This document shows, piece by piece, positions 50,249 to 64,000 of a DNA stretch of 64,000 nt. The notes beneath the pieces are model-generated. The model searched no databases and was not told the DNA's origin. It saw only the letters and a list, made by a program, of their open reading frames with translations. The number at the start of each line of letters is the position of its first letter. Position 1 is the first letter of the stretch. The DNA lies in assembly GCF_009834565.1 (NCBI RefSeq), contig NZ_CP019428.1, positions 5,270,001 to 5,334,000 on the forward strand, written 5' to 3'. Both the position numbers and the translations under genes were made by a program. This DNA comes from Pseudomonas sp. R76. GTDB lineage: Bacteria; Pseudomonadota; Gammaproteobacteria; Pseudomonadales; Pseudomonadaceae.

Positions 50249-51582
50249 GCCGCTGCGGCATAAAACCTCGAAACCTGAGGCCGTGGCGCAATAAATCGGC
50301 GAATGTGTGGCCTGCCACCTGCAACTTCACACACACCGATTTCCGTTAGCCGGCTAAGATTCCAGGTCACTGCCCCTGGAATCTGCCCATGTCGACACTC
50401 ACCGCCTCAGCCACGGACGGCATCGACCCGATCCGTGCCGCCCATATCAGCGCGCGCATTGACCGCTTGCCCGCCGTCGCCACTGTCTGGCACCTGGTGG
50501 CGTTGCTGTCGATCGGCGGTTTTTTCGAGCTGTATGACCTGTTCCAGACCGCCTACATCAGCCCCGGTTTGATCAGCGACGGGATTTTCCACACCGGCAG
50601 CGAAGGCGTGTTCGGTTTCTCCGATCAGGCCGCGTTCGCCTCGGCGACCTTCCTCGGCCTATTCCTCGGCGCCAGCCTGCTCAGCCCCATCGCCGACCAC
50701 TTCGGGCGGCGGGCGATCTTCACCTTTGCGTTGATCTGGTACACCGTCGCCACCGTGCTGATGGGCATTCAGACGTCTGCACCGGGCATTATCTGCATGC
50801 GTTTTCTGGTGGGTATTGGCCTGGGCATCGAACTGGTGACCATCGACGCCTACCTCTCGGAACTGGTGCCCAAGCGCATGCGCAGCTCGGCATTCGCCTT
50901 TGCGTTTTTCATCCAGTTTTTGTCGGTGCCGGCGGTGGCGTTGATGTCGTGGTGGCTGGTGCCGCAGGCGCCGTTCGGGGTCTCCGGCTGGCGCCTGGTG
51001 GTGCTGAGCAGCGCGGTGTTTGCGCTGTTTATCTGGCAACTGCGCAAACGCCTGCCGGAATCACCGCGCTGGCTGGCGCAGAAAGGCCGCTTTGACGAAG
51101 CCGGGCAGATCATGGACAGCCTGGAGGCACGTTGCCAGAAAGACCATGGCAAACCCTTGGATGAACCGGAGCCGCAAGCCGTCAGCGTGCAAGGCAACGG
51201 CCGCTTTGCCGATATCTGGCAGCCGCCGTACCGGCGCCGGGCGTTGATGCTGATTGTGTTCCATGTGTTCCAGGCAATCGGCTTTTTCGGCTTCGGCAAC
51301 TGGTTGCCGGCGCTGCTGTCCGGTCAAGGCGTGAGCGTGACCCACAGTTTGCTCTACGCGTTCATCATCACCCTCGCCTACCCGCTGGGGCCGTTGCTGT
51401 TTGTGAAGGTGGCCAACCGTTTTGAAAACAAATGGCAGATCGTCGGCTCGGCCATGGGCGCGATGATTTTCGGCAGCCTGTTCGCCCTGCAAACCACGGC
51501 CGTTGGGTTGGTGATCTGCGGGGTGATGATCACCTTCTGCAACGCCTGGCTGAGCTTCAGTTATCACTCGTACCAAAGTGAA

Positions 51583-51585
51583 TTG
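51583..51585. repeat. Target-site duplication, left copy (TTG)
   Basis: TTG left of the IS matches TTG at 53034-53036. Confidence 0.85.
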
Positions 51586-53033
51586 GGCGGATTCAACCGG
51601 TCGTCGCAACACTGGATTGTTGTACAGACTTTAGATACTCATTGAGTGCTTCGGCAGGTGTTTTCCAGCCGAGTGTTTTTCGAGGTCTAGTGTTAAGTAC
51701 GTGAGCTACCGCCTGTAATTCTTGGGCACTCCAACGAGAGAGGTCAGTGCCTTTCGGGAAGTATTGCCGTAGAAGGCCGTTCGTATTTTCGTTTGTACCG
51801 CGCTGCCATGGACTATGTGGATCAGCAAAGAAAACCTTTACTCCGGACTCGATGGTAAATCGAGCGTGATCCGACAGCTCCTTTCCACGATCCCAGGTCA
51901 AAGATCGCCACAGCTCGATGGGAAGATCAGTCACCGTCTTCTTCAATGCGTTGGCCATACTAACAGCCCCATAGCCAGCCAGCGCCGGGCCGTTCTTCGT
52001 GCGGGGAATTAGCCCATAACCTTTCTCGCGAGGCAGATGGACGAGCATGGTAAATCGAGTTGAGCGCTCGACCAGAGTTCCAATCGCAGACCGGTTCAGA
52101 CCGATGATCAGGTCGCCCTCCCAATGCCCGGGTACAGCCCGATCTTCTACCTCAGCAGGGCGACTGGAGATCATGACGTCCTCGCTGACATGTGCCCACA
52201 CTTTGGCCTGCGCTCTGGCTCTCGGCACGCGCAATGCGCGTCCTGAGCGCAGGCAGCTCACCAGTTCGCGCTTGAGAGCTCCTCGACCCTGAATGTAGAG
52301 CGCCTGATATATGGCTTCATGAGAGATGCGCATGGATTCATCATCCGGAAAATCGATCTGGAGCCGGTTGGCAATTTGTTCAGGCGACCAGCCATTGACC
52401 CATTTACGGTCACTGCGATGCGGTTTATTTCGGCCTTTGAAGGGTGCTTGCCGAGGCCCAGAAATCTCACGACCATCGGCGTCTTGAACCTTGCCCTCAA
52501 GGCGGTCGCGTACGTACTGGTGCAGTCGCGGGTTAGTGACCAATTTCGCTGGTTTCGGTCTCTTGGCCACCAGTTCTGCCTTCCATTGCGCTACTGACGC
52601 TCGATATTCAAGCCGACCGCAACGGGTAGCAGCATTTCGTGTCAGCTCCCGTGAAATTGTCGATGGGCTTCGTCCAAGGCGACGGGCGATCTCACGAACG
52701 CCAATACTTTGCGCTCGAAGCAGCCCAATCTCTTCTCGCTCTGCAAACGATAAGTATCGTCCTGATATGTGATTCGACATGAATAATGGCATCCCGCCGC
52801 GATGACGGAACCAGCGTGTACCTACCGCTGTTGATACGCCAACGGCATGTGCTGCCTTTTCGCTTGTGATGCCTGTTGCAATCTGCACCCAAAATAGCCG
52901 CTCGATCTCATTACGAAGTGAGGGCGCACCTGGAGAACGCATCGCTCCCCGGCCCGTCAATTTTTGCATCCATCCTGCGGGTCGTCCCATAAACACCTCG
53001 AACAAGGTGTTGCGACGACCGGTTGAATCCGCC
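51586..53033 (-). mobile_element. IS30-family insertion sequence
   Basis: A 1448-bp element with 27-bp perfect inverted ends (51586-51612 and 53007-53033; GGCGGATTCAACCGGTCGTC then GCAACAC) and 3-bp target duplication TTG. One transposase gene fills it. It lies inside the MFS gene. Confidence 0.95.
51593..52990 (-). CDS. IS30-family transposase
   Basis: 465 residues from the ATG at 52990 (GAGG upstream); the open frame to 53047 reaches outside the element and is not used. The helix-turn-helix is in SFAEREEIGLLRAQSIGVREIARRLGRSPSTISREL. The DDE catalytic core shows GHWEGDLIIG (first Asp), WDRGKELSDH (second Asp), and DPHSPWQRGTNENTNGLLRQY (Glu). All residues are present, so the enzyme should be active. 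The length is more than the usual 340-390 because of an N-terminal extension of about 60 residues. Confidence 0.95.
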   Translation of the reverse strand: MGRPAGWMQKLTGRGAMRSPGAPSLRNEIERLFWVQIATGITSEKAAHAVGVSTAVGTRWFRHRGGMPLFMSNHISGRYLSFAEREEIGLLRAQSIGVREIARRLGRSPSTISRELTRNAATRCGRLEYRASVAQWKAELVAKRPKPAKLVTNPRLHQYVRDRLEGKVQDADGREISGPRQAPFKGRNKPHRSDRKWVNGWSPEQIANRLQIDFPDDESMRISHEAIYQALYIQGRGALKRELVSCLRSGRALRVPRARAQAKVWAHVSEDVMISSRPAEVEDRAVPGHWEGDLIIGLNRSAIGTLVERSTRFTMLVHLPREKGYGLIPRTKNGPALAGYGAVSMANALKKTVTDLPIELWRSLTWDRGKELSDHARFTIESGVKVFFADPHSPWQRGTNENTNGLLRQYFPKGTDLSRWSAQELQAVAHVLNTRPRKTLGWKTPAEALNEYLKSVQQSSVATTG

Positions 53034-53387
53034 TTGTTCCCCACCAATATCCGCGCGCGGGCGGTGGGGTTCTGCTATTCGTTCAGCCGCTTGTCCACGG
53101 TGTTCAGCAGCCTGTTGATCGGGTTCATCCTCGAGCACTTGGGCACGCCGGGCGTGTTGGCGTTTATTGCCAGCAGCATGTTGATCGTGATGATCACCAT
53201 CAGTTGGTTCGGCCCGCGTACGCGTAATCTGGCGTTGGAGAATATTGCGCACTGACGGCAACGCTTGGCCGCCGGCAGGATAATGTTTGCCGCAACGGCC
53301 GCGCCATCCCCAATAAAACCGGGCCTGACGCCTGCGGCACGCTATTTGCTCCACCTGTGGCACCGAACACATCCCAGGTGAGCAATC

Positions 53388-57413: not shown

Positions 57414-58016
57414 ATGAAACTGTATTTTTCCCCGAATGCCTGCTCGCTCGCGCCGCATATCGTCCTGCGTGAACTGGCCTTGCCGTTCGAACTGGTGCAG
57501 GTGAATAACCAGGCTAAAACCTTCGCCGACGGCGAAGACTTCCTGCAGATCAACCCCAAAGGCTACGTGGCGGCGCTGCAACTGGACAACGGCCAGGTGC
57601 TGACCGAAGCCAGTGCGATCCTGCAATACCTGGCCGACTTGAAACCCGCCGCCGACCTGGCCCCGGCCAATGGCAGTTGGGAACGTGTGCGCTTGCAGGA
57701 ATGGCTGAATTTTATCGCCAGCGAGATTCATGGTGGGCTGGCGATTTTCTTTAATGGTGCGATTCAGGGGGATGTGCGCGCGATGTTCCTGGCCACGTTG
57801 TACAAGCGCTTTGCGATTCTGGTGCAGACGTTGGAGGGTCAGGATTATCTGTTGGGCACGCAGTACTCGGTGGCGGATGCATATTTGTTTGTGGTGCTGC
57901 GTTGGGCCGGGTTGCACGACATTGATTTGCAGCAGTGGCCGGCGTTGGCGGCGTTTCAGCAGCGGGTTGGCGAGCGGCAAGCCGTAATCGCCGCATTGGC
58001 CGCCGAAGCCGCATGA
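57414..58016 (+). CDS. Glutathione S-transferase
   Basis: 200 residues. The thioredoxin half MKLYFSPNACSLAPHIVLRELALPFELVQ has Ser/Cys as in beta-class bacterial GSTs, with NPKGYVAALQLDNGQVLTEASAILQYLADL for glutathione contacts. The helical half has VADAYLFVVLRWAGL. It is probably regulated by the divergent LysR protein. A REPIN follows. Confidence 0.93.
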   Translation: MKLYFSPNACSLAPHIVLRELALPFELVQVNNQAKTFADGEDFLQINPKGYVAALQLDNGQVLTEASAILQYLADLKPAADLAPANGSWERVRLQEWLNFIASEIHGGLAIFFNGAIQGDVRAMFLATLYKRFAILVQTLEGQDYLLGTQYSVADAYLFVVLRWAGLHDIDLQQWPALAAFQQRVGERQAVIAALAAEAA

Positions 58017-58141: not shown

Positions 58142-59536
58142 TCAAAGAAAGGGTTTCAAGCTGCCATCGGTGATGAACGCACTCAACGCCAACACATCCA
58201 CCGACCCCGACCGATCCTGATCCAGATGCGTCACTTGGCTGCGCACCGCGTCATGAATCCGCTGCGCGCCCTGCCCCAATCGCAAATCGCCGCGCAAATC
58301 CACCGCTTGCGCGGCGACGATCAGTTCAATGCTCGCCAACCACAACACCCGCTCGGTTAAACGGCGGGTTTTGTCGACCACGGCCAACGCCTGCCCGGAG
58401 TAGTCTTCGACCCGATCCGCCACCGGCACGTTCACAGCAGGCAATGGGTTGGCAAGGTGGCCGATCTCCGCGACCAACGCCGAGCTGGTGCGCTGCAAGG
58501 CAGCCATGCCGACGTGCCCCGGTTGCGTGGTCAGAAAGCGCGGCAAGTCGCTGGACGCCGGTGACAGCAATTTGGCAATGCGCTCAGCACTGCAGGCCGC
58601 CACGCGACTGAGCGCCAAGCCCACGCCTTCCGCGGCCAGGGCCAAGTGCGTGCTGTCGAAATTGGCCGTGGCCACTACCCGCGACGCTTCGCTGATCAAC
58701 GCCGGGTTATCCGCGCCGCTGCGCAATTCCAGCTCGACCAGCTCATGCAGTTGCTGCAACGCCTGCTGCGTCGCACCCTGCACAACGGTGGCACAGCGAA
58801 AGCTCAACGGGTCTTGCAAGCGGCGCGGGCTGCCCGCCAAATCGCCGCCTTCAAGCAGGTGCAACAACGCCGCCGACTGCTCGCTTTGCCCCGGCGCCGG
58901 GCGCAAGCGTGAAGCCCACGGCTGGAACGGGCTGAGGTTGGCCCGATAGCCTTCACACGACAGCGCCAGCGCAGCCAACACCGCCTGCAACACCTGCTGC
59001 ACTTGCGCCACCAGCAACGCGCCCAGCCCGACACTTGCCGCATTCGCCGACACCAGCGCCAGGCCGTCCTTGCCGGTCAACGGCACCGTAAGCGCCAAGC
59101 TCAGGTGAGCCAGCGGCGCCAAGTCACTCTCGCCCAACGAGCCGAGCAACGGCACCTCGGGCTCGACGCCGGAGTTAAGCAACGCCAGCAGCGCCTCTGC
59201 CGTCGCCGGTGAAATGCCCGAACGGCCCTGAGCCAACCCGGCCAAACGGGCGGCGGTAATGGCGCGCAACTCCTGACGATTGGCCAGGCGCCCGACACCC
59301 ACCGCACGTCCCAGGGGAATGTTGGCCTGCAACGGCGCCACCGAGGTATCCACCGCCGCTCCGAGACCGGTGGTCACGCCATAAATCGGCGTGCCCTCGG
59401 CCGCGAGTTTCAGCAGCAACTGGTGGCCTTCGTTAATACGCTGACGCGCCTGCGCAGTGAAATTCGCTGGCCTGTCGTGCTGGGCAATCGCCAGCAAATC
59501 CTCCAGCGTGAGGCCTTGGGGATCGATGAGAATCAC
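58142..59536 (-). CDS. Histidine-ammonia-lyase homologue lacking the MIO triad
   Basis: 464 residues, shorter than HutH (about 510). The fold is clear: YGVTTGLGA near residue 53 (first catalytic Tyr kept), RLRPAPGQSEQ, SGADNPALISEA, and VEDYSGQAL. But where HutH has GSVGASGDLAPLAH, this reads GSLGESDLAPLAH. The Ala-Ser-Gly that cyclises to the MIO electrophile is replaced by Glu-Ser with one residue missing. QDPYSLRC is QDPLSFRC, so the second catalytic Tyr is Leu. The enzyme probably removes a better leaving group or runs a different elimination. It overlaps the cyclodeaminase gene by four bases. Confidence 0.85.
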   Translation of the reverse strand: MILIDPQGLTLEDLLAIAQHDRPANFTAQARQRINEGHQLLLKLAAEGTPIYGVTTGLGAAVDTSVAPLQANIPLGRAVGVGRLANRQELRAITAARLAGLAQGRSGISPATAEALLALLNSGVEPEVPLLGSLGESDLAPLAHLSLALTVPLTGKDGLALVSANAASVGLGALLVAQVQQVLQAVLAALALSCEGYRANLSPFQPWASRLRPAPGQSEQSAALLHLLEGGDLAGSPRRLQDPLSFRCATVVQGATQQALQQLHELVELELRSGADNPALISEASRVVATANFDSTHLALAAEGVGLALSRVAACSAERIAKLLSPASSDLPRFLTTQPGHVGMAALQRTSSALVAEIGHLANPLPAVNVPVADRVEDYSGQALAVVDKTRRLTERVLWLASIELIVAAQAVDLRGDLRLGQGAQRIHDAVRSQVTHLDQDRSGSVDVLALSAFITDGSLKPFL

Positions 59537-60537
59537 GCCCAGCGCAGCCGCTGGCAGATCCCCAGGCGCTTGGCTTTTTCCAGCAGCGCATGGCCCAGGG
59601 CGATATCGCTGAGGCTCAAGCCGCGGTGCCAGAAGAGGATGGTTTCTTCGGGGTTTTCACGGCCGCTCTTCAGGCCGGCGACAATCTGCCCAAGCTCGGC
59701 GTGCAGGGTGTCGGCGCTGAGCTTGCCGGCGTCGACATGGGCGCGCAGTGCGCCAAACATACCGCCTTTGCACTGGCCCCAATCGTCCACCACTAGTTTG
59801 CTCATGATGTCGGTGAGCGACAATTCCACCGCGCTCATGGTGCCGTAAGGCACCACAAAGGCACCGGGTTTGATCCAGTCGGTGCGCAACAACGGTTCAG
59901 GCTGATCCAGCCGCGAGGCCTCGACCACAATGTCGGCGCCGCGCACGGTGGACTCCCAGTCTTCGGTGACGATGACCGGCTTGCCCAAGTCGCGACGCAG
60001 GCGTTCGGCGAAGGCTTCGCGGCTTTCGCTACGACGCGAATGCACGCGGATTTCCTCGAAGTCGAACAGGTGGTCGAGCAGCCGCACATTCCAGTACGCC
60101 GTGCCGCGCGCGCCGATATGCGCCAGCACTTTACTGTCGGGCCGGGCCAGGTATTTGGCGCCGATGGCAGTGACGGCGCCGGTGCGCATGTCAGTGATCG
60201 CCGAGGCATCGAGGATGGCCTTGGGAATGCCGGTGGCCGGGTCCAGCAGGTTGAGAATCGCCAATTCCGAAGGCAGGCCCTTGCGGTAGTTGTCGACGAA
60301 GTCGCCCACCACCTTGACCCCGGCGTAACCGATGCCGCCACCGAGCACACCACGCAACACGTTGAAGTGGCCATTGATCTCACCGCCAGGAATCAGGTGC
60401 GTGCGCGGCTCGATCACCGCCTCACCCCGGCCCTGAATGCCCAGGCTGGCTTCGATGGCGCTGAGGATTTCATCGTTGGAAAGGTTGAGTTCGTCGATGT
60501 CCAGGCCGTTGAGAAAGTCGATGTAGATCGGTTGCAT
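59533..60537 (-). CDS. Ornithine cyclodeaminase / mu-crystallin family protein
   Basis: 334 residues. The NAD-binding core reads LAHIGARGTAYWNVRLLDHLF, with HSRRSESREAFAERLRRDLG for cofactor and substrate side, and DASAITDMRTGAVTAIGAKYLA earlier, typical of this family. Members deaminate ornithine to proline or reduce imino acids; mu-crystallin-like ones reduce ketimines. The lyase follows with a four-base overlap, so the two products work together. It is 39 bases after the SsuA-like gene. Confidence 0.88.
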   Translation of the reverse strand: MQPIYIDFLNGLDIDELNLSNDEILSAIEASLGIQGRGEAVIEPRTHLIPGGEINGHFNVLRGVLGGGIGYAGVKVVGDFVDNYRKGLPSELAILNLLDPATGIPKAILDASAITDMRTGAVTAIGAKYLARPDSKVLAHIGARGTAYWNVRLLDHLFDFEEIRVHSRRSESREAFAERLRRDLGKPVIVTEDWESTVRGADIVVEASRLDQPEPLLRTDWIKPGAFVVPYGTMSAVELSLTDIMSKLVVDDWGQCKGGMFGALRAHVDAGKLSADTLHAELGQIVAGLKSGRENPEETILFWHRGLSLSDIALGHALLEKAKRLGICQRLRWA

Positions 60538-60576
60538 GGTCTGCTCACTGATAAAAGGTTTTAGTGCTTCTTGTGC

Positions 60577-61515
60577 TTATGGCGCCTTGAACACGATCTG
60601 CTGCACATCGACCTTTTTCGGGATCAGGCCATTGGCAAAAAACAGGTCGGCGGTGCGTTGCTGGTTGGCGATATCCACTGCCTCCAACGGGCGAATCGGC
60701 GCCGGTGAGCGGTGTTCGAAGTAGCTTTTGACCACCGCCGGTGGCAGGCCCAGGGTCTTGGCCATCAATGCGATGCTTTGCTCGGGTTGGTCCAGGGACA
60801 GGCGCTGCGCCTTGGCCAGGGTCTTGATGATCGCGCCGACCGCCTGCGGGTGCTGCTTGGCAAACGGGCTGCTGACCACAAAGAAACTGCCCGCCGGGTT
60901 GAGGCCTTGGCCGTCACCCAGCACGCGCGCAGAACCGTCGACCACGGCCGCCGAGTAGTACGGGTCCCACACCACCCAGGCGTCGACTTTGCCCTGCTCA
61001 AACGCGGCACGCCCGTCGGACGGCGACAGGTACACCACGTCGACATCCTTCCACTGCAAACCGGCGCGCAGCAGGCTCTTGAGGAACAGGTTGTGCGCGC
61101 TGGAACCCTTGAGCAGCGCGACGCGCTTGCCCTTGAGTTCGGCCACGCTCTGAATCAGGCTGGCCTTGGGCACCAGCACCGCCTCGGTCTTGCCCTCATT
61201 CGGCTCGACCGCGAAGTACTGCAAATCAATGCCGGCAGCCTGGGCGAAGATCGGCGGGATGTCGCCGATATTGCCGATGTCCAGGCTGCCGCCGTTCAGC
61301 GCTTCGATCAGCGGCGGGCCACCGAGGAATTCGATCCACTGCACCTGAGTGCCGGGCAGCGCCTCTTCGAACAACTTGTGCTCGCGGGCCAGCACCATGC
61401 TCACCGAGCTTTTCTGGTAGCCGATGCGCAAGGTGGAAGGTTCGGCGGCTGAAACCGCTGCCGAAAACACCATTGAAGCCAGGATCACGCTGAAAAATTT
61501 AACCATCTGTGTCAC
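60577..61515 (-). CDS. ABC substrate-binding protein, SsuA/TauA-like
   Basis: 312 residues with a signal peptide ending near VSA-AE (about 23). The fold is of the NMT1/SsuA type (LRIGYQKSSVSMVLAREHKLFEEALPG and FLGGPPLIEALNGGSLDIGNIGD). Such proteins bind sulfonates, taurine, nitrate or thiamine precursors. There is no permease or ATPase gene near it in the window. It lies between the ProX-like gene and the cyclodeaminase in one operon. Confidence 0.9.
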   Translation of the reverse strand: MTQMVKFFSVILASMVFSAAVSAAEPSTLRIGYQKSSVSMVLAREHKLFEEALPGTQVQWIEFLGGPPLIEALNGGSLDIGNIGDIPPIFAQAAGIDLQYFAVEPNEGKTEAVLVPKASLIQSVAELKGKRVALLKGSSAHNLFLKSLLRAGLQWKDVDVVYLSPSDGRAAFEQGKVDAWVVWDPYYSAAVVDGSARVLGDGQGLNPAGSFFVVSSPFAKQHPQAVGAIIKTLAKAQRLSLDQPEQSIALMAKTLGLPPAVVKSYFEHRSPAPIRPLEAVDIANQQRTADLFFANGLIPKKVDVQQIVFKAP

Positions 61516-61519
61516 CTCT

Positions 61520-61612
61520 GATCGCTCCCACGCTCAGCGTGGGGATGCATCCTGTGAGAGCGGGACGCGGAGCGTCCCTGGTGGCGTTCCTTTGCTGCGC
61601 GTGGGAACGATC
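61520..61612. repeat. REPIN-like repeat, family B copy 5
   Basis: GATCGCTCCCACGC to GTGGGAACGATC, shortened to 93 bp, filling nearly all of the gap between the ProX-like and SsuA-like genes. Confidence 0.85.
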
Positions 61613-61617
61613 AAGCA

Positions 61618-62631
61618 TCAAAGGGCGGCTTTGACTTTGGCCGCCACGTCCGCCGGCACCCATTGCTGCCAGACTTGCGGCTGCTCTTTGAGGAACGCCA
61701 GCGCGACTTGGCGCGGCTGCTCACGCTTCTCGCTCATCTGCGCGAGGATGCCGTTGAGCAGGTCAATCGGCAGGTCGACTTTTTCAAAGAAAGTCACCAG
61801 TTGCGGGTACTGCGCCTTGAACGGCGCCGACACGCCAATCGCCAGGTGCGCGGGCATCGAGCGGGTGCCGATGGGGTGCGGGTTATTGGCGTCGGCCAGG
61901 GTTTTCCAGGCTTCGGCGTTGAACGGCGGCTCTTCCAGTTTGATCAGCTTGAAGCGGCCGAGCAGCGGGGTCGGCGACCAGTAGTAGAACAGCACCGGTT
62001 TGCCACGGCGGATCGACGAGGCCACTTCGGCGTCCAGCGCCGCGCCGGAGCCGGTGCGGAAGTTGACGAAGGTGTCGGTCAGGCCATAGGCCTTGAGCTT
62101 CTGGCTGTTGACGATTTCCGAGGTCCAGCCGGTGGGGCTGTTGAGGAAGCGGCCTTTGCTTGGGTCTTCGGGGTCGCGGAACACGTCCTTGTAACGCGAC
62201 AGGTCGGCCACCGACTTGAGGTCCGGCGCCAGGGGCTTGATGCCGCGCTCGGCGTCGCCCTTGATCACGTATTCCGGCACCCACCAGCCTTCGGTCGCGC
62301 CTTTGACCGTATCGCCCAGGCCGAACACTTTGCCTTCGCCCTCCGCCTTGACCCACGCCGGACTGCGCCCGGCCCATTCTTCGCCGATCACTTGGATGTC
62401 GTCCTTGGCCAGCGAGGCTTCCAGGCTCACGGTGCTGCCGGGCAAAGTGTCGGTGGGCAGGCCGTAGCCTTTCTCGACAATCAGGCGCAGTACTTCGGTG
62501 ATCAGGCTGCCACTTTCCCAGGTGATGTCGCCGAAGTGGATCGGTTTGACGGCATCGGCGGCGGGGGCTTGCTGGGCCAGGACAGCGAGTGCCAGCAGCG
62601 AGCCGCCGAGCAGTTTTTTAATTGTTTTCAT
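61618..62631 (-). CDS. ABC substrate-binding protein, ProX/OpuAC-like
   Basis: 337 residues from the ATG at 62631 (MKTIKKLLGGSLLALAVLAQ), a signal peptide of about 24-25 residues. The body belongs to the OpuAC/ProX family: GDITWESGSLITEVLRLIVE, EGWWVPEYVIKGDAERG and VLFYYWSPTPLLGRFKLIKLEEPPFN. Several Trp and Tyr could form the aromatic box that holds a quaternary ammonium. It should bind glycine betaine, choline, proline betaine or another trimethylated compound. The longer open frame to 62736 is family B repeat. Confidence 0.9.
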   Translation of the reverse strand: MKTIKKLLGGSLLALAVLAQQAPAADAVKPIHFGDITWESGSLITEVLRLIVEKGYGLPTDTLPGSTVSLEASLAKDDIQVIGEEWAGRSPAWVKAEGEGKVFGLGDTVKGATEGWWVPEYVIKGDAERGIKPLAPDLKSVADLSRYKDVFRDPEDPSKGRFLNSPTGWTSEIVNSQKLKAYGLTDTFVNFRTGSGAALDAEVASSIRRGKPVLFYYWSPTPLLGRFKLIKLEEPPFNAEAWKTLADANNPHPIGTRSMPAHLAIGVSAPFKAQYPQLVTFFEKVDLPIDLLNGILAQMSEKREQPRQVALAFLKEQPQVWQQWVPADVAAKVKAAL

Positions 62632-62649
62632 GCAGAACCTCGTGGTGAT

Positions 62650-62755
62650 GATCGTTCCCACGCTCCGCGTGGGAATGCAGCCCCGGACGCTCTGCGTCCA
62701 ACAGGTGACGCAGAGCGTCACAAGAGGCATTCCCACGCAGAGCGCGGGAACGATC
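62650..62755. repeat. REPIN-like repeat, family B copy 6
   Basis: GATCGTTCCCACGC to GCGGGAACGATC, between the TonB receptor stop and the ProX-like start. Confidence 0.88.
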
Positions 62756-62765
62756 GGTGAGCGGG

Positions 62766-64000
62766 TTAAAAGTCATAACTGAGCCGCGTGTAGTAAAACG
62801 CCCCTTCCGGCGCGGTCGGTGACAGGTAGCTGTATTGCTGGCCCGGCGTCTGGCGCAGGCGGCTGTTGAAGTCGTCGGGTTTGCTGTCGAACAGGTTGTT
62901 CACGCCCACCGACACGCGCAGTTGCTGGGTGAAGGCGTAGTTCACGTCGAGGTCGGTGGTCCATTGCGCGCTGAAGACTTGGTCGTATTGCGCGTTGGTC
63001 TCGCTGGCCGCGTATTTGCGGTATTTGCCGTAGCGCGTTTGGTTGAGGGCGATGGTCCACTGGTTGAGCCTGTGCACCGCGCCGAACACCAGTTTGTCTT
63101 CGGGGTAGCCGTGCTCGATAAAGCCACGGGCTTCGCGGGTCAGCACTTCGAAACCGTTGGGGTTTTCGTGGACTTTCTCAATCGTGGTGCGCGCCTTGGT
63201 GTAGCCGGCCGACAGCGCCAGGTCACCGAACTGCGCGAGGTCCAGGTTGTACTTGCCGACGATATCGACGCCGCGGGTGCGGGTGTCGGCGGCGTTGGTC
63301 ATGAACTGCGCCCACGAGTACTGGCCGTAGCCGGCATTGGTGAGGATCTGCTCGGCCAGCGGCCCGGAAATGCCGCCGCTGAACAGCAGGCGATCACGAA
63401 TCGAGATTTGATAGGCGTCGATGGTCAGCGAGGCATTTTCGGCCGGTCGCAGCACCAGGCCCAACGAGTAGTTGGTCGACTTCTCCGGCTTGAGCGGTTG
63501 CGCGCCGAGGGCACGCGCCGCCGGGTTGTCGGCCGGCAGCATGCGCGTCAGCACCGGGTTGCCGTTGGCATCGAGGTTGGTGGTGGTGGTCCACGAGGTG
63601 CCGATCTGCCCCAGGCTTGGCGCGTGATACGCGTTGTTGACCGTGGCGCGCACGCCCACTTGCGGGGTGAAGTCATACCGCGCCGAGAGCTTGCCGGTGG
63701 TGGCCGAGCCGAAGTCCGAATAGTGCTCGGTGCGCCCGGCCACGCCGACTTGCAGCTTGTCGGTGACCTGGTTTTCGAGGCCGAAATACACGCCGCCCAC
63801 ATCACGTTTAAACGTGCCGGCGTCGTCCGGAGTCAGCCCGGAGGCTTGCACCGCGCCGACCTGCACGCCATCGATACCGCCGTAGGAATAGGAGTCGTAG
63901 TCGCCGGCTTCGAGGCGATATTGCTCGTGCCGATAGGCCACGCCCGCCGAGACGGTCAGCGGGTGGCTGGACCAGTTCACGTCCAGATCCTTGGCGTAGT
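62766..64000 (-). CDS. TonB-dependent receptor, C-terminal part
   Basis: The gene continues past the right edge. About 410 residues are visible, with the repeated beta-strand pattern of an outer-membrane barrel (YRLEAGDYDSYSYGG, GLENQVTDKLQVGVAGRTEHYSDFG, LKPEKSTNYSLGLVLRPAENASLTIDAYQISIRDRL) and the final aromatic FYYTRLSYDF. TonB receptors bring large or scarce compounds through the outer membrane. It leads the ProX-SsuA-cyclodeaminase-lyase cluster on the minus strand. The ligand cannot be read; the plug domain is outside the window. Confidence 0.93.
   Translation of the reverse strand, partial: YAKDLDVNWSSHPLTVSAGVAYRHEQYRLEAGDYDSYSYGGIDGVQVGAVQASGLTPDDAGTFKRDVGGVYFGLENQVTDKLQVGVAGRTEHYSDFGSATTGKLSARYDFTPQVGVRATVNNAYHAPSLGQIGTSWTTTTNLDANGNPVLTRMLPADNPAARALGAQPLKPEKSTNYSLGLVLRPAENASLTIDAYQISIRDRLLFSGGISGPLAEQILTNAGYGQYSWAQFMTNAADTRTRGVDIVGKYNLDLAQFGDLALSAGYTKARTTIEKVHENPNGFEVLTREARGFIEHGYPEDKLVFGAVHRLNQWTIALNQTRYGKYRKYAASETNAQYDQVFSAQWTTDLDVNYAFTQQLRVSVGVNNLFDSKPDDFNSRLRQTPGQQYSYLSPTAPEGAFYYTRLSYDF

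Follow-up and report, generated by a model that had tools for sequence, protein, structure and literature searches.

A probable trimethylamine-lyase-type catabolic module in Pseudomonas sp. R76, sister to ergothionase and accompanied by two partner proteins

The 64,000-nucleotide stretch of Pseudomonas sp. R76 analysed here (the window; contig NZ_CP019428.1, positions 5,270,001 to 5,334,000 of a 6.83-Mb genome) ends in a run of five minus-strand genes at 58142–63998, and the open reading frame (ORF) list and Pfam/TIGR profile scans place these genes, and assign them to families, as the original prediction had done from the letters alone. The gene at 58142–59536 encodes a 464-residue protein of the aromatic amino acid lyase family (PF00221, 354 bits) without the residues that form the 4-methylideneimidazole-5-one (MIO) group, a candidate betaine trimethylamine-lyase. 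Its start overlaps by four bases (GTGA, 59533–59536) with the stop of the gene at 59533–60537, which encodes its dedicated partner, a protein of the ornithine cyclodeaminase/mu-crystallin family (OCD; PF02423, 185.8 bits). Upstream lie genes for an SsuA-like sulfonate-type periplasmic binding protein (60577–61515; TIGR01728, 292.8 bits against a cut-off of 163.5), a ProX/OpuAC-type quaternary-amine binding protein (61618–62628; PF04069, 188 bits) and the C-terminal part of a TonB-dependent receptor (62766–63998; PF00593, with a PF07715 plug). The two binding proteins are indeed of different families, OpuAC and TIGR01728, and no permease or ATPase gene lies within the run. A repeat of the repetitive extragenic palindromic (REP)/bacterial interspersed mosaic element type occupies 62650–62755, between the TonB and ProX genes, with about 100 match rows in the genome, many of which are one place read on both strands; the 372-residue ProX ORF crosses this element, and with its start at the ATG at 62628 the protein has 336 residues and a signal peptide. 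A second, diverged REP-type repeat (61520–61613; genome match 5331520–5331613) separates the ProX and SsuA genes, and because of these two repeats we make no claim of a single transcript for the whole run.

To the right of the window, in the locus that we label L009, the receptor gene is completed (ORF L009:7767-10655; 962 residues with plug and barrel in Pfam) and is followed by its upstream neighbours, which encode FecR, an extracytoplasmic function (ECF) sigma factor, a PF12974 protein of PhnD-like type and a PF00487 protein. Across the 11 Pseudomonas loci compared (L009, L029–L036, L045 and L094), the genes keep the order PF00487 protein, PhnD-like protein, FecI, FecR, TonB receptor, ProX, (SsuA), OCD, lyase. 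The SsuA-like protein, which has a signal-like N-terminus, is present in only seven of these 11 loci, which are also the only seven of 81 loci of the lyase clade described below to have it, and we therefore regard it as accessory and ProX, OCD and lyase as the core. In the seven SsuA-bearing loci, a convergent gene for a GstA-type glutathione transferase (window 57414–58016; 207 bits, cut-off 198) stands beside the lyase gene.

The sequence of the lyase indicates that it cannot form MIO. The MIO-forming ASG tripeptide (ASGD) is found in 5/5 HutH proteins and in none of the 81 lyases of the window clade or the 11 ergothionase-clade rows, and in all 92 of these MIO-less rows the motif of the MIO region is one residue shorter; the window lyase reads GSLGESDLAPL where HutH reads GSVGASGDLAPL. 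The prediction that both this lyase and ergothionase do without MIO is thus in keeping with the alignment. (One record, L042, cut at a contig end and without a start, is missing from the residue, neighbour and ASG counts.) The protein scores 301.6 bits on the HutH model TIGR01225, below the cut-off of 539, and 103.7 bits on the phenylalanine ammonia-lyase (PAL) model against a cut-off of 519. Its best sequence match in the PDB is ergothionase 6s7j (197.6 bits), ahead of the histidine ammonia-lyases (HAL) 7tqr (171) and 1gkj (165), with PAL entries far below both groups. The AlphaFold2 model predicts a confident full-length fold (mean predicted local distance difference test score, pLDDT, 92.6), for which Foldseek ranks 6s7j at positions 1–3 (E ~1e-31) and HAL close behind at 7e-30. 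A standard HutH identity was rejected on the missing tripeptide and the score below the cut-off, and a PAL or tyrosine ammonia-lyase identity on scores that are far too low.

Phylogenetic analysis places the window lyase in a clade that is sister to the ergothionase clade and not within HutH. A careful tree built from 79 rows joins the window clade (54 rows, support 100/95) and the ergothionase clade (12 rows, 100/100) into a single group of 66 rows (100/100), which stands apart from MIO-bearing HutH and from a second group of HutH-like sequences without MIO; a quick tree (69 rows) gives the same picture. Both trees comprise a hand-picked part of the fetched lyases with no PAL row, so that the comparison with HutH and ergothionase proposed earlier was answered by phylogeny and that with PAL by scores only. 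The careful tree omits a divergent paralogue (PARA_L111), an over-long Streptomyces ORF (L150) and the near-duplicates L141–L144, and one scan of relatives covered the best 80 of 93. The second MIO-less group includes a HutH-like lyase of the organism's own hut operon (locus L012; gene G000:C1:472355-473728, L110), which reads GSVGYLTHM; ASG is absent in 6/6 rows of this group, which forms a separate branch. A class-wide search of 369 genomes for the window lyase returned a match in its own genome only (1/369). The protein is 97% identical to one named from Pseudomonas poae, and the database entries examined call members of the clade histidine or phenylalanine ammonia-lyase, or simply aromatic amino acid lyase; the ammonia-lyase names are probably wrong.

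Comparison of active-site positions, with roles as described for HAL, reveals both conservation and one marked substitution. The positions of HAL Tyr53, Gln277, Arg283 and Glu414 are kept in 79, 81, 81 and 81 of the 81 clade lyases, respectively, and the window lyase shares with HutH its fold, the Phe329 position and the hut context seen for some relatives, whereas it has Leu for Tyr280 and belongs to its own clade. With ergothionase from Treponema denticola (PDB 6s7j/6s7q) it shares the HAL fold, the missing tripeptide, the shortened motif and a conserved DPLSFRC segment and Glu. The position of HAL His83, on the other hand, is His in 11/11 ergothionase-clade rows and Arg in 60 of the 81 clade lyases (His in 21), the window lyase having Gly-Arg there. 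Identity to ergothionase is 28–30%, and a loop of about 25 residues after residue 149 is missing in the window lyase and its nearest relatives (5/20 aligned). To judge from the separate clade and the Arg substitution, the window lyase is not ergothionase itself. The lost loop and the scores far below the HutH cut-off might also be read as signs that the protein is a leftover HutH, decayed or regulatory, that stands beside OCD by chance; given the retained active-site positions, the confident full-length predicted fold and the co-inheritance with OCD in 9/9 Pseudomonas genomes, we regard such a relic as highly improbable.

The pairing of OCD and lyase exceeds chance. OCD occurs in nine of 119 Pseudomonas genomes (E 1e-60), the same nine that carry the lyase at >=64% identity, while three further genomes have paralogues of 32–34% only. 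OCD lies within about 10 kb (less at contig ends) of 51 of the 81 clade lyases, many of which are close relatives and do not represent 51 independent cases; these and the other neighbour counts over the 81 clade loci rest on score thresholds set in the counting script. In a sample of the phylum, 11 of 398 genomes contain OCD, and in eight of the 10 besides R76 it shares its locus with a MIO-less lyase; in the remaining two it lies in a hut operon with a MIO-bearing HutH (L146) or with no lyase nearby (L139). All 51 OCD-linked lyases are among the 60 with Arg at the His83 position, and none is among the 21 with His, a split that reflects few events because the His-type rows are Mesorhizobium, its near kin and one actinobacterial record. 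Within this His-type sub-clade (21 loci between L058 and L082: Mesorhizobium and kin, L064 and L080), no OCD, PhnD-like or betaine binding protein exceeds the thresholds. The lyases of the sub-clade probably act on another substrate.

The OCD proteins constitute one subfamily. They share with alanine dehydrogenase, SbnB and ornithine cyclodeaminase (1omo, 4m54) the fold family and the Lys of GYAGVK, and differ in having PYGTMS in place of the alanine dehydrogenase segment AIGAD (each position in 53–54 of 54 relatives) and a distinct nucleotide-site sequence, GARGTAY; no equivalog cut-off is reached. The Asp of the AIGAD segment, catalytic in alanine dehydrogenase, is not present. The same subfamily occurs in the loci of the ergothionase-type lyases of Polaromonas, Paracoccus and Paraburkholderia.

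A PhnD-like protein is encoded near 35 of the 81 clade lyases. Its model (pLDDT 90.9) has the predicted fold of the periplasmic oxyanion-binding proteins AioX, PtxB and PhnD, with a Foldseek template-modelling score of about 0.8 to AioX. Unlike those proteins, it has an invariant Cys-Gly-x-Pro, has no ATP-binding cassette (ABC) partner beside it in Pseudomonas and lacks a signal-like N-terminus, which was found in 0/36 PhnD-like ORFs (those above 120 bits) compared with 23/24 OsmF-type, 8/11 ProX-type and 7/7 SsuA-type proteins by the same hydropathy measure. The invariant residues among 22 aligned sequences include Cys59, Gly60, Pro62, Ser119, Ser121, Gly122, Arg127 and Asp167. In Pseudomonas, the PhnD-like gene adjoins that of the PF00487 desaturase-family protein (L009:13110-14039), which is also found in lyase loci of Azospirillum, Gemmobacter and a Rhodospirillales record, and in 15 of the 81 clade loci overall.

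The gene setting of the lyase in other bacteria fits a quaternary amine. A betaine-type binding protein is encoded near 31 of the 81 clade lyases, and betaine ABC operons surround the lyase gene in Rhizobium (L047/L113), Acerihabitans (L037) and Martelella (L154). The Rhizobium loci read YeiH exporter, coenzyme A (CoA)-transferase, short-chain dehydrogenase/reductase (SDR), MaoC, HutC-like repressor, lyase, OsmF-type protein, OCD, PhnD-like protein, two permeases and ProV ATPase, with the HutC-like repressor adjoining the lyase in L047 scoring 279.5 bits on TIGR02018 (cut-off 220); the Martelella locus comprises a HutC-like gene, lyase, OsmF-type protein, OCD, PhnD-like protein, permeases and ATPase. 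A BCCT transporter is found in one locus and MTTB in three of the 81. The MTTB-family methyltransferase shares its locus with OCD and lyase in the Leisingera/Ruegeria records L104 and L105 (by Pfam for L104 and by seed match for both).

In other lineages the lyase is found within or close to hut operons, which fits a histidine-type substrate. In a gammaproteobacterium (G772, L138), a block of hutU, a BCCT betaine transporter gene, hutH2, hutI and hutG is followed on the same strand, after about 375 bases, by a second block of lyase, OsmF, OCD, PhnD-like protein, permeases and ProV, and this lyase is Arg-type. In locus L103, hutI, a HutC-like gene, hutU and OCD stand side by side in that order, and the lyase is encoded on the opposite strand at a distance of about 5 kb; L086 has HutF, a MIO-bearing HutH, the MIO-less lyase and OCD. 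Of the ergothionase-type lyases, that of Paracoccus (L117) is encoded behind hutU in a locus that also has OCD and YeiH; that of Paraburkholderia (L149) stands in the order OCD–hutU–lyase, and that of Polaromonas (L114) occurs with YeiH, OCD and PhnD-like protein.

The HutU proteins of these loci are ordinary urocanases by score. On the urocanase model (cut-off 375), full-length HutU of L149, L117, L103, L146 and the organism's own hut operon score 966.7, 943.5, 933.0, 940.7 and 1017.1 bits; on the thiourocanate hydratase model the same proteins reach 668–688 bits, below the cut-off of 930. The HutU of L138, a fragment at the end of its stretch, scores 672 and 453 bits, respectively. No thiourocanate hydratase above the cut-off is present in the R76 genome, a further difference from the ergothionase setting, the sole match there being the hut-operon HutU at 687.9 bits. 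Because the lyase-linked HutU is an ordinary urocanase, the product of the lyase would most simply be urocanate and its substrate hercynine. The trimethylated-histidine-type substrate of the original prediction is thereby supported in part, by the quaternary-amine setting and the hut operons of other lineages; the likeness to ergothionase does not extend to being that enzyme, given the separate clade, the Arg for His and the missing thiourocanate hydratase.

These scores also bear on a sulfur-bearing substrate. In such a reading, ergothioneine or ergothioneine sulfonate would be converted by the lyase to 2-thio- or 2-sulfo-urocanate, from which OCD and the PhnD-like protein would remove the sulfur for ordinary HutU, with YeiH-type exporters disposing of sulfite. 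A putative sulfate exporter of the YeiH family is indeed encoded in eight of the 81 clade loci, which all belong to a single Rhizobium group, and in the ergothionase-type loci of Polaromonas and Paracoccus (L114, L117), the window has its SsuA-like protein, luciferase-like monooxygenases (LLM) are found in L116, L153, L065 and L071 (the count for the clade being 3/81), and the Arg at the His83 position could hold an anionic group on the ring. However, thiourocanate hydratase above the cut-off is absent from the R76 genome and from the scanned lyase-linked HutU (the L138 fragment, L149, L117 and L103), no YeiH match was found in the 11 Pseudomonas loci, and the two LLM proteins of L116 are of the NtaA/DmoA type and not specifically SsuD. 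The Arg-type lyase of L138 lies beside an ordinary hutU, and a sulfonate explanation of the Arg switch has therefore lost weight. We consider a sulfur-bearing substrate rather unlikely.

Another aromatic betaine, such as the tryptophan betaine hypaphorine or tyrosine betaine, whose aryl-acrylate product would be degraded via CoA thioesters, could account for the CoA-transferase, SDR and MaoC hydratase genes just ahead of the HutC-like gene and lyase in Rhizobium, and many lyase-bearing Rhizobium records come from legumes (host field). Such a substrate is improbable in view of the Glu at the HAL Glu414 position in 81/81 lyases and the hut operons of other lineages, and the 11 Pseudomonas loci gave no more than weak SDR matches to these CoA genes.

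On balance, we lean towards a cluster for the uptake and breakdown of a trimethylated histidine, with hercynine (histidine betaine) as the most likely compound. The TonB receptor, controlled by a FecI/FecR-type signalling pair of its own, would carry the compound across the outer membrane, and the ProX-like protein would bind it in the periplasm and pass it to a permease and ATPase encoded elsewhere, perhaps those of the hut operon. The lyase, like ergothionase, would then eliminate trimethylamine from the α-carbon; MIO would not be needed, since trimethylamine leaves readily by itself. The resulting urocanate would enter the ordinary pathway encoded by the hut operon present in the genome, with OCD and the cytosolic PhnD-like protein as frequent partners that may act on an imidazole compound near urocanate.

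As to the transport step, the suggestion that missing transporter parts might lie to the right of the window was not borne out: neither within the run nor among the seed-search matches in L009 (of whose ORFs the Pfam scan covered only part) is there a permease or ATPase gene, including beside the SsuA-like gene. The ProX-like protein belongs to the OpuAC Pfam family, scores 65.4 bits on NF008334 (cut-off 215) and has as its best PDB match 7yle, a dimethylsulfoniopropionate-binding protein. Two paralogues are encoded in the genome, one standing alone (547 bits to the window protein) and one in the hut operon with a permease and ATPase (345 bits); that the window ProX shares this permease is a guess. 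EgtU, whose ergothioneine-binding residues are named in an excerpt of PMC9732360, is among the matches of the OsmF-type protein of L037 and not of the window ProX.

Several observations weigh against the hercynine reading. Arg replaces, in 60 of the 81 clade lyases, the His of both HutH and ergothionase. Genes of the hut pathway are found in only three of the 81 clade loci of the neighbour table, one of which (L080) has just a split HutU, and the Pseudomonas cluster (5.33 Mb) has no permease and lies a long way from the hut operon (0.47 Mb). The sulfur-linked neighbours (SsuA-like protein, YeiH and LLM monooxygenases) are not needed for hercynine, nor are the Rhizobium CoA-transferase, MaoC and SDR for urocanate. 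OCD is missing from the stretch examined around 30 of the 81 clade lyases, and no OCD, YeiH, PhnD-like or hutU neighbour accompanies the ergothionase-type lyase of Sinorhizobium (L115). Conversely, OCD and the PhnD-like protein also stand beside an ordinary MIO-bearing HutH in L146 (genome G672) and on a Rhodococcus qingshengii plasmid (L151), so that the pair is not tied to betaines alone, and Cupriavidus L148, one of the plasmid records (L148–L150) read with the seed proteins, has both and, within 19 kb, no match to the lyase. Hercynine degradation does not explain what OCD and the PhnD-like protein do. A more speculative proposal, and one we think doubtful, is that OCD and the cytosolic protein of PhnD fold act together as a new two-protein enzyme system, through which modified imidazole-acrylates (e.g. 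thio- or sulfo-urocanate) could enter the ordinary histidine pathway, and which is combined with either a betaine lyase or normal HutH; if true, several metabolites derived from histidine would share a modular route found in two phyla.

Elsewhere in the window, at 51593–53047 (minus strand), a transposase-like ORF splits what appears by eye, from the ORF list, to be the frame of a major facilitator superfamily transporter (50389–51645 / 52866–53255).

Rhizobium rhizogenes, in which some Agrobacterium radiobacter strains are now placed, includes records that carry a window-type cluster (L050, L099). In an excerpt of PMC13405746, ergothionase is described as MIO-less and known from few bacteria, with divergent homologues that may be missed, and a bacterial ergothioneine sulfonate pathway is tied to A. 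radiobacter. That pathway (Yan, Huang and Zhang, ACS Catal 2022), by its title, starts from a sulfur-bearing histidine betaine. The 2022 paper may describe a relative of the window cluster and cover part of it, and our claim of novelty is therefore limited. Among the titles and abstracts listed for hypaphorine, hercynine/urocanate and ergothioneine degradation, a search outside which most subscription journals lie, no description of a lyase–OCD–PhnD module was found.

The sequence comparisons thus point to a probable trimethylamine-lyase-type catabolic module, sister to ergothionase, with two partner proteins. Fungi and some bacteria produce histidine betaines such as hercynine and ergothioneine, whose use by soil and fungus-associated bacteria is little described within the literature searched. 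If confirmed, the window clade would be a new group of trimethylamine-releasing enzymes, the OCD and PhnD-like proteins would gain a testable role, and the combination of lyase, OCD and PhnD-like protein would serve as a marker module for finding betaine users.

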